Shown piece by piece: positions 59,224-64,000 of a stretch of 64,000 nucleotides of DNA. Each line of letters begins with the position of its first letter. Within the stretch, counting starts at the first letter, position 1. This stretch comes from Paenibacillus polymyxa M1 (GTDB taxonomy: Bacteria > Bacillota > Bacilli > Paenibacillales > Paenibacillaceae), in the NCBI RefSeq assembly GCF_000237325.1, contig NC_017542.1, positions 4,480,001-4,544,000 on the forward strand, given 5' to 3'. The translations under genes were made by a program, and so were the position numbers. The notes under the pieces were generated by a model, which did no database searches, was not told the DNA's origin, and worked only from the letters and a program-made list of their open reading frames with translations.

Positions 59224-60051
59224 ATGATGCAGACACGTGCAAAATCCATTGTTCTATATGCCGGGCTGTTGGTGGGTATCATCCTGTCGATGTTTCCGTT
59301 TTACTGGCTGATCGTCATGGCGACCCGTACAACCTCAGACATCTATCGTTTTCCGCCACAATTGTGGTTCGGTAGCCACTTCCTGGATAACATAACGAGA
59401 GTATTGCAGCAGATTGATTTTGCTGGAGCTTTTTTTAATACCCTTTTTGTAGCCAGTTCTGTTACCGTATTGGTGCTGTTTTTTGATTCACTGGCTGGTT
59501 TTGCATTCGCCAAGTTTGATTTTCCGGGCAAAAAGGGGCTATTCGTCATACTGCTTGCAACAATGATGGTCCCTTCACAACTTTCGCTCGTCCCCTCCTT
59601 TGTCATGATGGCTTCCTTTGGATGGGTAGGTACGTTCAAAGCGCTCATCATCCCAGGTATGGTAAATGCTTTCGGTATTTTCTGGATCCGCCAGTATGCA
59701 GAAGAATCCATTCCCAAAGAGTTGCTGGATGCGGGGCGTATGGACGGGTGCAGCTTTTTTCGGCTGTACTGGAATGTAGCACTGCCGATTTTAAGACCTG
59801 CGTTCGCTTTTCTCGGCGCATTTACCTTTATAGGAGCTTGGAATGATTACTTATGGCCGTTAATCGTTTTAACGGATGAGCGCAAATTTACGCTCCAGAT
59901 TGCATTGTCCCAGTTGAACGGGATTTACAATACGGACTATGCGATGGTCATTGCTGGCACCCTGCTGGCTGTACTCCCTCTTATTATTTTGTTTCTTTTT
60001 ATCAGCCGCCAGTTTATTTCCGATCTTGCCGCTGGAGCGATCAAAGATTAG
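59224..60051 (+). CDS. Sugar ABC transporter permease (MalG/UgpE type)
   Basis: Second permease, 275 residues, six helices. The EAA loop is ELLDAGRMDGCSFFRLYW (about 160-178), and the tail FISDLAAGAIKD is the family C-terminus. AAGGAG precedes ATG 59224. No ATPase follows; the unit ends at a terminator. The gap 60052-60206 shows nothing further. Confidence 0.93.
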   Translation: MMQTRAKSIVLYAGLLVGIILSMFPFYWLIVMATRTTSDIYRFPPQLWFGSHFLDNITRVLQQIDFAGAFFNTLFVASSVTVLVLFFDSLAGFAFAKFDFPGKKGLFVILLATMMVPSQLSLVPSFVMMASFGWVGTFKALIIPGMVNAFGIFWIRQYAEESIPKELLDAGRMDGCSFFRLYWNVALPILRPAFAFLGAFTFIGAWNDYLWPLIVLTDERKFTLQIALSQLNGIYNTDYAMVIAGTLLAVLPLIILFLFISRQFISDLAAGAIKD

Positions 60052-60206
60052 CTTCACTTGATTCCCATCTGGAAATATTGCCCTAAATGGAACACTGCAA
60101 ATGAGTTACTTCGAAGACTGAGCTTCGCATACGATTGAATATGCACCGTCTGCCTGTGATCCATATTCCCCTGCAAACTTGTTTCCATATTTTTGTAATG
60201 ATTAAT

Positions 60207-60250
60207 AAAAAATCGCTTCCACTCATCTAACTGAGTAGAAGCGATTTTTT
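60207..60250. terminator. Bidirectional terminator between sugar ABC and RiPP operons
   Basis: A 15-pair stem (60211-60225 with 60232-60246, one G-U) with A/T runs on both sides. It ends the rightward ABC operon and the leftward RiPP operon, and marks the left limit of the AT-rich region. Confidence 0.9.
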
Positions 60251-60288: not shown

Positions 60289-60483
60289 TCAACTCAAAGC
60301 CATATCATAGTTTGCACTACTATTCATTTGTCTATCAGGGCGACATTTACATGCACAATTCGAGCCATGTCCAAAATCATGAAGTATGTTATTACTACCG
60401 GAAGAACATATGCAAGATAAAGGAACAATTCCAAGACTATTTGCCATTAAAGGCTTCTTTCCAAATGGATTTACAATTCTCAT
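60289..60483 (-). CDS. Cysteine-rich RiPP precursor, five-Cys (CxC...CxCxC)
   Basis: A 64-residue peptide starting at ATG 60483 with AAGGAGG seven bases upstream. Cys24 and Cys26 (SCICSSG) and Cys43, Cys45 and Cys47 (NCACKC) form two clusters separated by a Gly/Asn/His-rich loop; the first 23 residues (with NPFGKKPLM) look like a leader. The tail after Cys47 is RPD then polar. I know a class of Cys-rich peptides (CLI_3235-type) that sit beside a SPASM radical SAM maturase and have a GKK-containing leader; this resembles it, but I could not verify it. It lies 35 bases after the maturase gene, last in the operon. Confidence 0.72.
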   Translation of the reverse strand: MRIVNPFGKKPLMANSLGIVPLSCICSSGSNNILHDFGHGSNCACKCRPDRQMNSSANYDMALS

Positions 60484-60518
60484 TTATAATCCTCCTTCAA
60501 CTCTACTTTGTTTATAGA

Positions 60519-62051
60519 TTACACCAAAGTAATATGATTTAATGCTTCTAATAAATGTGGTTTGTTTTCCAAGATAGTATGATAGCTTATCAATGCATGT
60601 TCTAGCATATCTAAAGAACGCCTACAAGCCATTCTCTTTTTTTCAATATTAAATTTGTCACTATCGTAACATTCGACGTAACATACCGAACATAGACGTA
60701 TAGCCCAACATTCAGAACATTGTGGTAAGCTTTCCTTACAATAGTCCTCTATATAACGATCAATTAACACAGTTTCATCTAAACCACTGTAAACATTCCC
60801 AACTGAAGGTGATTTTCCTATGCGTTCGCATAAATGAAAATCTCCATTTGCCGTTACATAGATTCTTCTTGTCGCAGGTGAACAGCAGCCATTTAAATTA
60901 TAATTCGGGTAAGGAGTTTCAGTTAAAATCCTATCATGTATTATTGAGAATTGTTTGTGTAAAAAATCGATTGTGAATGGGTTACTTTGTGATGTATAAG
61001 TATTATTTAACATCAGATCAGTTGTCCAGTTCCCTACAGGGTTATCATAACAATGTATAGGGTTTTCTTCAGTAATCGTTTTCTCTATGTCAGACGAGTG
61101 TCTCACATAAGAAATATTTTTAGTAATATCCTTAGGTACCCACGAAAGAGAATTAAAGAAATTTTGAATTTTTTTCATTACCGCATCATTAGTTGGTCTG
61201 GGTGTTACCATGCTTAGCGATATAAGGGAATTACTTTTTTCTCCATAAGCATTAATTAGATATTTAAGACCATGAATTGCCTTGTCGTAAGTGCCCGCGC
61301 CATTTTTAAATACCCTTCTACAATCATGTATTTCCTTTGGACCATCAATACTACATACAACTCCAAAGTTAGGGATTGTAGATAGATATTCTGCGATTTC
61401 AGCAGTCATTAAGGTTAAATTTGTTGTCATTGAAAAAGTTAGATCTTTACCAGCGCCATTTTCCAGAGCATAGGCTACACAATGCTTTAATAATTTAAAT
61501 TCTATTAATGGCTCCCCACCATAAAAAGTTACCGCGACTTTTTTACCTGAGTTTTTTAAAGTATAATCAATTGCTAACTCTGCTACTTGCCAAGACATGT
61601 GTCTACGTCCAAACTCTCTGAAGTCTATGTTTCCTGAATGATATATGCAATAGTGACATGCCATATTACATTGTTCGGTCAACTCCAGTGTAACCTGTTC
61701 TAGATGGCTTTTTGCATTTTTTAAAACCTCATCTTCTGATAGTGCAAAGGATAAAAGAGGAGGAGCTTGGAATAAATGCTGCTCATGCGCAACATGTATT
61801 AAGTCAATTAGAATAGTCAATGTATCATCATTAACTTTAATAGGATTTATTACCTTCGCTATATCTCCGTACAATTGTAAGTTATTTAGAAATGTATACT
61901 CTATTTCATTACATTCCATTACTTTGCCTGTGCCCACATCATATAAATAGGATTTATTCTTTGTCTGAAATAACTTAAATAGTCGAGAATAATTCCCATA
62001 CTGTTTTTCGATGTTTCTAAAGAACTCCATAACTGTGGAATCCAATATCAT
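60519..62051 (-). CDS. SPASM-type radical SAM peptide maturase (CcpM-like)
   Basis: The cluster motif CxxxCxxC is Cys129-Cys133-Cys136 (QCNMACHYC), followed by VTFYGGEPL (the GGE S-adenosylmethionine motif). The C-terminal 130 residues form a SPASM domain with many cysteines (NGCCSP, HLCERIG, CSECWAIRLCSVCYVEC). An N-terminal 110 residues (YDVGTGKVMECNE) may be a precursor-recognition domain. Such enzymes make thioether bonds from Cys to other residues. ATG 62051 (or GTG 62054) lies inside the 3' end of the ABC gene, overlapping it by about 35 bases with AAAGGAAC upstream. No leader protease accompanies it. Confidence 0.9.
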   Translation of the reverse strand: MILDSTVMEFFRNIEKQYGNYSRLFKLFQTKNKSYLYDVGTGKVMECNEIEYTFLNNLQLYGDIAKVINPIKVNDDTLTILIDLIHVAHEQHLFQAPPLLSFALSEDEVLKNAKSHLEQVTLELTEQCNMACHYCIYHSGNIDFREFGRRHMSWQVAELAIDYTLKNSGKKVAVTFYGGEPLIEFKLLKHCVAYALENGAGKDLTFSMTTNLTLMTAEIAEYLSTIPNFGVVCSIDGPKEIHDCRRVFKNGAGTYDKAIHGLKYLINAYGEKSNSLISLSMVTPRPTNDAVMKKIQNFFNSLSWVPKDITKNISYVRHSSDIEKTITEENPIHCYDNPVGNWTTDLMLNNTYTSQSNPFTIDFLHKQFSIIHDRILTETPYPNYNLNGCCSPATRRIYVTANGDFHLCERIGKSPSVGNVYSGLDETVLIDRYIEDYCKESLPQCSECWAIRLCSVCYVECYDSDKFNIEKKRMACRRSLDMLEHALISYHTILENKPHLLEALNHITLV

Positions 62052-63690
62052 CACGTTCCTTTTGGATTTCGATATTCAGGATATGGTCACATGCTGCTAA
62101 TAGTCTCTGGTCATGTGATACCACGATTGTTATCTTTCTTGACTTTTGCTTAGTCAATATTTCTACAAGTCCACTTACACTCTTTGAATCTAGGGCTGAT
62201 GTTGGCTCATCAAGAATCGTTAAGAATGAATCTTTACTTAATGCACGAATCAAAGATAATTTTTGCTTTTCACCACCAGAAAAGTTGCTCCCATTTTCAT
62301 TTATTAATATATTTTCAAGGTTAGATTTTGTTATCATCCCTTCAAGACCAAAGGCATTTATAAGCTCATTTTGGTTACTAGCAGTCTCTTTCGAAAAATT
62401 AATTCCAAATCTTAAATATTCCTCTATTGGTAGATTTAAAAACTCCGGATTCTGTTCTACATAAGAAATTTTAAAACGCCTCATATTAAGCATATCCAAA
62501 TCTTTTATGGAGCAATTATTAAAAGCTATCTCTCCTGTGTAAAGATCACTATATAGACCTATCATAGTATTAAGTAATGTTGTTTTGCCTGAACCATTAT
62601 GGCCACATATCCCGTAAATTTCCCCCTTAGAAAAATCATAAGAAAAGTCTCTAAATACGCTTTCACCAGAATATTTAACACCTAATTTTTTAATACTTAT
62701 TTTCTCTAATTCTACAAGTGTTGCACTACCATAAATATCATTTTCAGATTTCATAATGTCATTTAACCGTTCTATCGATACTTTCGTCTCTTGGTATGAG
62801 CTTGCTAAACTTAATAAATATGAGGTTGACGAGATGATCATTGAAAGGTAGGTGTTAATTATAGTGAACTGCCCTACACTCATTTGGCCAATTACAACTT
62901 TATGACCTCCAATTCCAATTACAAATATATAGCAGATGATCAATATAAATTGATTTAGATTTGAGAAAATATAATTAGTTTTCACTTGTGAAGTCGCAAC
63001 TCTAAATAATGAATTAAATGCTTTATTTAACCGCTCATTCATTTCATTAAAGAGTACATTCTTCTTTATAAAAACCAATTTGTTAATTTGTTCGACTTTT
63101 TTAGAGTAGTATTCATTTGCTTCTTTTTTGTATTTCAAATTTGCTTTATACAATTTTTTTCTAAAAACCACATATGTAAATATATAAAATGGAATAAGCG
63201 AGAAAATTATAACGCATAGTAGTACATCAGCTTTTAAAACAATAATACCGCTGACAATTATTGTTATTACTTGCAATACTAAGTTAGAAATATTATTTGA
63301 AAAAAAGTCAACTACTGTGGATGAATCATTATTAATTTGGTCAACTAAGTATGCATTATCCTTATCTTTGAAGACCGACAGTTTGGTTTTAAATATCTTT
63401 TGATAGATATCATTGCAGATTTCGTATAATAATAAATTATTCAATTTGGTAGAGAAAAGAGCAGTTAAATATTGTATGAGAATGTTTGCTATATTTATAA
63501 TCCCCAGTAACAGTACAAAATATAAAATGATACTTATATTACTTTTTGATACTAAATAATCAATATATATGCCTGTGATGTAAGGCACAATAATTCCTAT
63601 AATCCACAATACTGAAGTAACTGCAATGTAAAAAAATACATACTTGCGCGTTTTTGAAAGGTATTTTTTCAAGTATTCTAGGACTATCAT
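62017..63690 (-). CDS. ABC exporter (fused membrane and ATPase domains)
   Basis: Half-transporter of about 557 residues. Six membrane helices (1-290) precede the ATPase: Walker A GHNGSGKTTLLN, signature NFSGGEKQKLSL, Walker B FLTILDEPTSALDS and the switch VVSHDQR. It has no N-terminal C39 peptidase domain, so it exports but does not trim the leader. ATG 63690 is preferred for the AGGTG six bases upstream; GTG 63699 and ATG 63696 are alternatives. It is probably the exporter of the modified peptide(s) and perhaps self-immunity. Confidence 0.9.
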   Translation of the reverse strand: MIVLEYLKKYLSKTRKYVFFYIAVTSVLWIIGIIVPYITGIYIDYLVSKSNISIILYFVLLLGIINIANILIQYLTALFSTKLNNLLLYEICNDIYQKIFKTKLSVFKDKDNAYLVDQINNDSSTVVDFFSNNISNLVLQVITIIVSGIIVLKADVLLCVIIFSLIPFYIFTYVVFRKKLYKANLKYKKEANEYYSKKVEQINKLVFIKKNVLFNEMNERLNKAFNSLFRVATSQVKTNYIFSNLNQFILIICYIFVIGIGGHKVVIGQMSVGQFTIINTYLSMIISSTSYLLSLASSYQETKVSIERLNDIMKSENDIYGSATLVELEKISIKKLGVKYSGESVFRDFSYDFSKGEIYGICGHNGSGKTTLLNTMIGLYSDLYTGEIAFNNCSIKDLDMLNMRRFKISYVEQNPEFLNLPIEEYLRFGINFSKETASNQNELINAFGLEGMITKSNLENILINENGSNFSGGEKQKLSLIRALSKDSFLTILDEPTSALDSKSVSGLVEILTKQKSRKITIVVSHDQRLLAACDHILNIEIQKERDDIGFHSYGVL

Positions 63691-63721
63691 ATTCATCACC
63701 TATATTTCATATTAGGTAAAT

Positions 63722-63754
63722 CTTAGCGAGATGCTGAAACAGCATCTCGCTAAG
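63722..63754 (-). promoter_or_regulatory. Perfect hairpin between the first peptide and the ABC gene
   Basis: Perfect 14-bp stem CTTAGCGAGATGCT/AGCATCTCGCTAAG (63722-63735 with 63741-63754) with a five-base loop. It lies 20 bases past the peptide stop and has no T-run after it. It fits an attenuator or RNA-stabilising element that gives more peptide than enzyme mRNA. Confidence 0.7.
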
Positions 63755-63773
63755 TAATGTTACTTCTCTTAAG

Positions 63774-63869
63774 CTACATCTTGTAGGAACAAGAAAGAGT
63801 ACAGCCACTTGAACCGTGGAAAGGACAATGTGCACTTACTTGTACAGCACTTTTTACTAATACGTCCAT
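63774..63869 (-). CDS. Short three-Cys peptide, candidate RiPP precursor
   Basis: A 31-residue frame, ATG 63869 to TAG 63774, with AAGGAGGG ten bases upstream. Residues 1-14 (MDVLVKSAVQVSAH) may be a minimal leader. The C-terminal part holds Cys15, Cys23 and Cys27 among Gly, Ser, His and Phe (CPFHG, GCTLSCSY). I recognise no described family. Its SD, its place at the head of the exporter-maturase operon and the hairpin behind it argue that it is real. It shares no sequence with the five-Cys peptide at the other end except Cys content. Confidence 0.6.
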   Translation of the reverse strand: MDVLVKSAVQVSAHCPFHGSSGCTLSCSYKM

Positions 63870-63935
63870 GGTTTTTCCCTCCTTAAATTTTAATTTATAT
63901 AAATAACATACAGTTGAAAAACTATATGCTACTTA

Positions 63936-64000
63936 TCACTTTTGAGCTGCAATAGAAAATGCACTGTTTTCAAGCGTGATATTTATTTTTGCTTTACCTG
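63936..64000 (-). CDS. C-terminal end of a frame cut by the window edge
   Basis: A leftward frame open at the right edge and closed by TGA at 63936-63938; the last residues read NITLENSAFSIAAQK. Only 20 residues are visible, so no identity can be given. It ends 67 bases before the short-peptide start and could be another precursor or the end of an upstream RiPP gene. Confidence 0.35.
   Translation of the reverse strand, partial: GKAKINITLENSAFSIAAQK

Follow-up and report, generated by a model that had tools for sequence, protein, structure and literature searches.

An operon that encodes two unlike cysteine-containing precursor peptides around a single exporter raises the question of which enzyme modifies which peptide. 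The operon considered here lies at the end of a 64,000-nucleotide stretch of the 6.2-Mb, two-contig genome of Paenibacillus polymyxa M1 (hereafter the window, G000:C1:4480001-4544000). A preliminary description had read it as an operon for ribosomally synthesized and post-translationally modified peptides (RiPPs) in which one SPASM maturase accompanies two peptides. The two unlike precursors are supported, but the lone maturase is an effect of the window edge. A second radical S-adenosylmethionine (SAM) gene, rSAM-A, is found on the same strand 577-1905 bases past the window end, and in relatives each precursor type has its own enzyme type; a single maturase for both peptides was dropped once the sequence past base 64000 showed rSAM-A. 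With that second enzyme just beyond the edge, the one-enzyme, two-substrate question mostly disappears. We regard as the probable explanation a composite RiPP operon, in which a Clo7bot-like cassette (a LytTR/GHKL pair, rSAM-A, a toastrack-like protein, the precursor pep31 and an ATP-binding cassette (ABC) exporter) is joined to a RumC/CA_C0660-like enzyme-precursor pair (rSAM-B and pep64) that lacks a separate exporter. This reading is built on gene content, gene order, conservation, family resemblance and the position of peptides in relatives; which enzyme acts on which peptide, the kind of bond, export through one transporter, the function of the hairpins, and the antimicrobial and immunity roles proposed below are inferred from these.

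The operon is transcribed on the minus strand in the order rSAM-A, toastrack-like protein, pep31, hairpin, exporter, rSAM-B, pep64, terminator. Coordinates on locus L003 equal window coordinates minus 60000.

L003 4577-5905 (window base 64577-65905), minus strand: rSAM-A, radical SAM enzyme, 442 amino acids (aa).
L003 3936-4583 (3' end at window 63936..64000), minus strand: toastrack-like protein, 215 aa, its gene overlapping that of rSAM-A.
63774-63869, minus strand: pep31, a 31-aa precursor with 3 Cys and an M-x-V-L-V start, the putative Clo7bot-like partner of rSAM-A.
63722-63754, minus strand: hairpin with a 15-bp perfect stem, a 3-base loop and no T run, directly 3' of pep31.
62017-63699, minus strand: ABC exporter, 560 aa, GTG start at 63699, with ABC_membrane and ABC_tran domains.
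60519-62054, minus strand: rSAM-B, RumMC-like radical SAM maturase, 511 aa, GTG start, 38-bp overlap with the exporter gene.
60289-60483, minus strand: pep64, a 64-aa precursor with 5 Cys, an M-R-I-V-N-P start and a CxC ... CxCxC core, CA_C0660/Apre_1838-like.
60207-60250, minus strand: intrinsic terminator on the 3' side of pep64, with a 19-bp stem and a terminal T run.
L003 6484-7320, opposite to the operon: divergent LytTR regulator.
L003 7317-8339 (window base 67317-68339), opposite to the operon: divergent GHKL kinase frame.

For the four genes and the perfect hairpin that the preliminary description had placed inside the window, coordinates, cysteine counts and domains are borne out. The Shine-Dalgarno sites it claimed for both peptide genes and the overlap of the rSAM-B and exporter genes are visible in the sequence, and the exporter gene has an alternative ATG at 63690 with a possible Shine-Dalgarno site. 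The toastrack-like protein scores 16.2 bits against DUF4097, below the cut-off of 22.9, and its N-terminus, judged by eye, is signal-like. L003 1-8600 gives no Rfam match at the gathering score.

The upstream half resembles Clo7bot systems. The best NCBIfam model for rSAM-A is the Clo7bot maturase TIGR04334, at 310 bits, and all 17 aligned rows keep its radical SAM and SPASM-type cysteines unchanged; scores against the ranthipeptide models PapB (130 bits of a required 340) and SCIFF (89 of 425; NF047865 and TIGR03974) fall below the cut-offs. Relatives were collected by scanning genome contigs with an rSAM-A alignment and keeping the best 80 of 127 matches (79 loci). Each locus was searched within -1.0/+1.5 kb for a small same-strand open reading frame (ORF) that has three or more Cys, starts M-x-hydrophobic and is preceded by a Shine-Dalgarno site. 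Of the 15 loci scoring at least 250 bits, 13 have such a peptide; the count is 18 for the 40 loci scoring at least 200 bits and again 18 for all 79, and an opposite-strand control finds one in 1 of 79. An adjacent short Cys peptide starting M-x-hydrophobic, a feature of these Clo7bot-type relatives, is what pep31 provides. Its closest relative, in a Lachnospiraceae metagenome-assembled genome (L055), has 45% identity (tblastn E 0.004), and its gene begins 38 bases beyond the matched part of the rSAM-A homolog; there, CPFNGWSKGCKLSCSY aligns to CPFHGSSGCTLSCSY of pep31. A locus of Faecalibacterium longum (L051) follows the gene order of the operon, from a divergent LytTR gene through a radical SAM gene, a DUF4097 protein (32 bits where the cut-off is 22.9) and a Cys peptide to an exporter, with one extra small gene before the radical SAM gene; it is a single-enzyme version, free of any rSAM-B-type ORF. 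Across the 79 loci, some of them cut by contig ends, no rSAM-B-type ORF (150 aa or longer, scoring above 100 bits) is found. From the position of the peptides in these relatives, pep31 most likely pairs with rSAM-A, which would most likely cross-link it through its three cysteines. Elsewhere among rSAM-A-type loci, three (L052, L053 and L054) carry very basic Clo7bot-like precursors of 56-57 aa ending VCWYGN, and two (L066 and L068) carry seven and four Clo7bot-like peptides beside one enzyme. Viral contigs give 4 loci for rSAM-A, at 29-35% identity.

The downstream half belongs with different families. The best model for rSAM-B is RumMC (NF035951), with 492 bits over residues 20-510, and the ranthipeptide models again stay below their cut-offs (PapB 145 of 340, SCIFF 132 of 425). 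The cysteines of the CxxxCxxC motif and the SPASM-type auxiliary clusters (C129, C133, C136, C390, C391, C409, C446, C449, C455, C458 and C477) are invariant in 14 of 14 rows, while the Pfam SPASM match, at 15.7 bits, is below the cut-off of 21.5. By sequence, the nearest solved structure is PDB 5wgg, aligned from profile position 25, so that the alignment also covers the part before the radical SAM core; we take 5wgg to be CteB, with a recognition domain in that part. Each of the two enzymes would recognize its substrate through the short N-terminal leader. CcpM, suggested earlier as a family for the maturase, was considered and dropped because of the scores against the CcpM/CLI_3235 model TIGR04068 (265 bits for rSAM-B and 128 for rSAM-A, cut-off 500). 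P. polymyxa does have a CLI_3235 sactipeptide, SacP23 (PMC10731318), whose cluster differs from the pep31/pep64 operon.

Fourteen rSAM-B-type loci were scanned for downstream Cys peptides. In the seven with the best tblastn matches (L137, L138, L139, L042, L147, L148 and L149; six independent cases, since the L148 and L149 peptides are identical), a peptide of 62 to 66 aa with a hydrophobic-(N/D)-P leader and a CxC ... CxC core lies 70-384 bases downstream. The opposite-strand control gives none in 14. All five relatives' peptides scanned match the CA_C0660 or Apre_1838 models, two of them above the Apre_1838 cut-off, though all five stay below the CA_C0660 cut-off at 25-40 bits. The pep64 gene shares the features of these relatives: it stands directly 3' of a RumMC-type enzyme and encodes a hydrophobic-N-P leader and a CxC ... 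CxC core. Locus position and model matches together make pep64 the CA_C0660/Apre_1838-like candidate partner of rSAM-B, and its pairing with that enzyme is most likely, judging by peptide position in relatives. By analogy with RumMC acting on RumC, rSAM-B would most likely form S-to-C-alpha thioethers on pep64. The search for pep64 homologs returned one protein only, identical to pep64, and a single-protein scan of genome contigs with rSAM-B found no relative. Viral contigs yielded 59 loci for rSAM-B, five of which were examined. Two of them (L148 and L149, 7979-11764) carry a RumMC-type enzyme and a CA_C0660-like precursor after phage holin and amidase genes; these neighbours, whose families were checked in L148 only, suggest a prophage-borne sactipeptide cassette.

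The exporter indicates how the halves came together. Its nearest relatives, at 44, 40, 36, 35 and 34% identity, are from rSAM-A-type loci, and in the exporter tree it forms a group with the L051-L054 exporters (support 1.000); exporters of rSAM-B-type loci show 26% identity over 520-530 residues or 25-31% over 217-287. Because the exporter groups with rSAM-A-type loci, rSAM-B and pep64 seem to have been added to a first cassette that was already complete, and both products most likely exit through the one exporter.

Stable RNA structure follows each precursor gene. The 91-nt hairpin region on the pep31 side folds with a z-score of -7.3, with none of 200 shuffles as stable. Measured over 50 nt, the stem after pep31 reaches -25.6 kcal/mol (z -8.1) and that after pep64 -27.5 kcal/mol (z -9.7). 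When the 120 nt following the precursor were scanned in 50-nt windows in 14 chosen comparison loci (30 shuffles each), the best window fell at a z of -3 or below in 10 and stayed above this value in L055, L056, L058 and L148. Since no T run follows the stem on the pep31 side, a stabilising role or partial termination is more probable there than full termination. These hairpins probably raise precursor levels over enzyme levels.

The operon is real, conserved and transferred. The AT-richness reported for the region is evident: of the 2-kb bins of the window, the final two have G+C of 0.344 and 0.299, against 0.419-0.509 for the other 30. Across the island G+C stays at 0.28-0.35, with 0.39 in the kilobase holding the right edge; outside it, values are 0.42-0.51 for the remaining window sequence and 0.385-0.470 over the 11 kb on the right-hand side. 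Low G+C runs to about 8 kb past window base 60000. The site between the sugar-permease and symporter genes (window 60066 to L003 8413) varies by species (L211-L218). Matches to these two genes are 116-162 bases apart, with no island, in six genomes (G004, G006, G007, G034, G066 and G068); an iron-containing alcohol dehydrogenase gene fills the site in two (G040 and G032), and another, distant radical SAM gene takes it in G061. A remnant of the alcohol dehydrogenase gene, 75 to 83 bases long, adjoins the island:

60071-60145, no strand assigned: alcohol dehydrogenase gene remnant, 75 bases (84% identical), left island edge.

The G+C drop and the empty or otherwise filled sites in relatives support import of the island, and so the transfer that had been proposed.

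A second species (G062) carries the whole operon at the same genomic place, so that both peptides, whose co-conservation across Paenibacillus genomes was one of the checks proposed at the outset, are present there. Between G000 and G062, all 31 residues of pep31 are identical, with one synonymous change; with only one change in all, this conservation has little power. After the start codon (ATG in one copy, TTG in the other), pep64 differs in 4 of 63 residues. The proportion of nonsynonymous differences (pN) is below that of synonymous differences (pS) in each of the seven genes compared: 0.006/0.023 (pN/pS) in the LytTR regulator, 0.003/0.023 in rSAM-A, 0.010/0.040 in the toastrack-like gene, 0/0.052 in pep31, 0.025/0.135 in the exporter, 0.040/0.270 in rSAM-B and 0.039/0.206 in pep64. 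Synonymous divergence is about tenfold higher at the pep64 end (0.2-0.27) than at the regulator end (0.02). This gradient suggests that the operon is a mosaic whose two halves have different histories between G000 and G062, with recombination around the exporter gene as the point of change. Both genomes retain the hairpin stem and the terminator, bar changes in or next to the loops. The promoter regions (L003 5906-6483 and L041 6099-6583) differ in entire blocks, with about 200 bases present in G000 only and about 106 present in G062 only.

The toastrack-like protein occurs in 2 of 75 genomes of the genus (G000 and G062) at E 0.001. Among 197 related genomes, 8 match rSAM-B and 23 match rSAM-A at 1e-40, and rSAM-B identity exceeds 36% only in G000 and G062. 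An rSAM-B alignment matches 6 of 398 genomes of a phylum sample at 1e-60, G000 included, and a search of 10 genomes from the class of G207 gave no match at 1e-90. In metagenomes, relatives of rSAM-A at 59, 59, 59, 53 and 51% identity and of rSAM-B at 49, 50, 53, 47 and 45% come from contigs of matching sizes (6785, 9836, 6514, 9279 and 29529 bases). These are five exact size coincidences, against about 0.03 expected from the density of near lengths, among the matches listed. The comparison took 38 of 120 listed matches (1031 in all) and 30 of 120 (412 in all), leaving out the Paenibacillus copies P0002 and P0122 and lower-ranking matches. These coincidences suggest that both enzymes sit on shared metagenomic contigs and have stayed together through deep divergence.

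Several observations weigh against the composite reading. Three of the family assignments fall below the cut-offs of their models, that of rSAM-A (310 bits) below 600 for Clo7bot, that of rSAM-B (492 bits) below 720 for RumMC and that of pep64 (41 bits) below 60 for CA_C0660 (NF035954), and pep31 matches no NCBIfam model. Among the rSAM-A-type loci, 61 of 79 lack a peptide of the pattern, including all 39 below 200 bits and 2 of the 15 closest; of the 14 rSAM-B-type loci, the seven with more distant enzymes carry Cys peptides of another kind (four) or none (three). The resemblance of pep31 to the L055 peptide is short and weak, and L055 itself, one of the loci where no stable hairpin follows the precursor, carries other ABC-type genes in place of the operon's exporter, and its contig stops 1.8 kb downstream. 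In the tree, the exporter from L141, the annotated Clo7bot locus, branches apart from that of the operon. Co-inheritance on metagenomic contigs is read from sizes, not contig sequence. The GHKL kinase frame has an in-frame stop in G000, with an intact 340-aa copy in G062. Finally, no leader protease is found among the operon genes, and the exporter has no peptidase domain in a Pfam scan.

Comparison with known systems places each half without matching the whole. Ruminococcin C (RumC, with RumMC1/RumMC2; PMC8188230) shares with the downstream half the enzyme family, RumMC being the best model for rSAM-B, and the paired CxC ... CxC layout and short leader of pep64. It differs in having two RumMC enzymes where a single RumMC-type enzyme here is joined to a second-family pair, and pep64 gives no RumC model match at E 1 or better. 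The CA_C0660/Apre_1838 loci (NF035954, TIGR04067; Anaerococcus prevotii pAPRE01 and Sarcina sp. JB2 p2) likewise have the enzyme followed by a CxC ... CxC precursor, with an M-K-h-h-N-P leader, but have other adjoining ABC genes and, in the stretch examined, no Clo7bot-like half. On the upstream side, L141, a Paraclostridium bifermentans plasmid locus, has an annotated Clo7bot maturase, seven annotated Clo7bot peptides, an exporter and an annotated DUF4097 protein (for which Pfam gave a weak toastrack match only). The operon is like it in enzyme family, short Cys peptides, ABC exporter and annotated-DUF4097 protein, and differs in having one peptide against seven, an exporter of another branch and a second maturase-precursor pair downstream. 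No paper on Clo7bot was found in the open-licence literature searched.

pep31 is already in print as a prediction, in a single paper of the open-licence literature searched. In that paper (PMC7343975), sacti10 of P. polymyxa Kp10, which is pep31 with Q replacing the last M, is a BAGEL4 prediction unannotated by NCBI and without BLASTp matches, and mass spectrometry of active fractions did not detect it. Its cluster spans 5392 bp there; rSAM-A to rSAM-B here is 5387 bp, and this near-equality may mean that the sacti10 figure shows both enzymes. Table 1 of that paper does not include pep64, and its text, as far as available, gives no two-pair reading; no report of pep64 or of two pairs was found in the open-licence literature searched. 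What remains of interest is the presence of two radical SAM pairs under one exporter.

Other accounts of the operon deserve consideration. It is rather unlikely, but conceivable, that pep31 is no antimicrobial but a modified signal sensed by the LytTR/GHKL pair, which would switch on the operon, including the pep64 half, with the exporter shared. Inducible class II bacteriocin systems offer a parallel for a signal and a product sharing one exporter. The regulator and kinase frame adjoin the operon in both G000 and G062, and such genes recur near relatives: L051 has a LytTR gene alongside, L063 a GHKL kinase, and in L055 a LytTR/GHKL pair precedes the rSAM-A homolog by about 3.3 kb. However, the kinase frame is interrupted in G000, other neighbours scanned are an OmpR-type regulator (L052) and a BlaR1-like protein (L053), and no AgrA-like paired sites were seen in the promoter region, a weak test.

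Quite unlikely, in our estimate, is an arrangement like that of thuricin CD, where the two radical SAM enzymes would form one complex that modifies both precursors, the products acting as a two-component antibiotic. Thuricin CD (TrnA/TrnB, TrnC/TrnD) likewise encodes a pair of precursors and a pair of radical SAM enzymes in a single cluster. The operon shares this gene content of a two-component sactibiotic and combines its two enzymes and two precursors with one exporter. PMC12093266 reports that neither TrnC nor TrnD is effective alone and that their complex acts on both precursors. The seeming co-inheritance of the two enzymes down to 45-59% identity, among the matches listed, and the M-x-hydrophobic stretch that starts both pep31 and pep64 fit such a complex. 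But both thuricin products are sactipeptides of one nested-hairpin type made by complexed enzymes, whereas rSAM-A and rSAM-B match different families, align over 157 residues at 31% identity, and each occur without the other beside their own precursor type. That rSAM-B alone modifies both peptides, as their shared operon might suggest, with rSAM-A uninvolved, is very improbable given an uninterrupted rSAM-A gene upstream with pN 0.003 against pS 0.023 between species, and close rSAM-A relatives beside pep31-like peptides without an rSAM-B-type gene.

In the composite reading, which we prefer to these, the operon would likely yield a pair of secreted antimicrobials, the toastrack-like protein being a candidate immunity factor. 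A bolder form, which we think unlikely, makes the operon a two-maturase unit that is conserved outside Paenibacillus as well, with a pep31 pheromone and a RumC-like pep64 sactibiotic under one exporter and one two-component system. If that were true, it would be a self-inducing sactibiotic, its signal and its weapon made by two different radical SAM enzymes. With two enzyme families, two unlike precursors and one exporter, the operon would offer a clean test of separate pairs versus a complex versus a signal plus a weapon.

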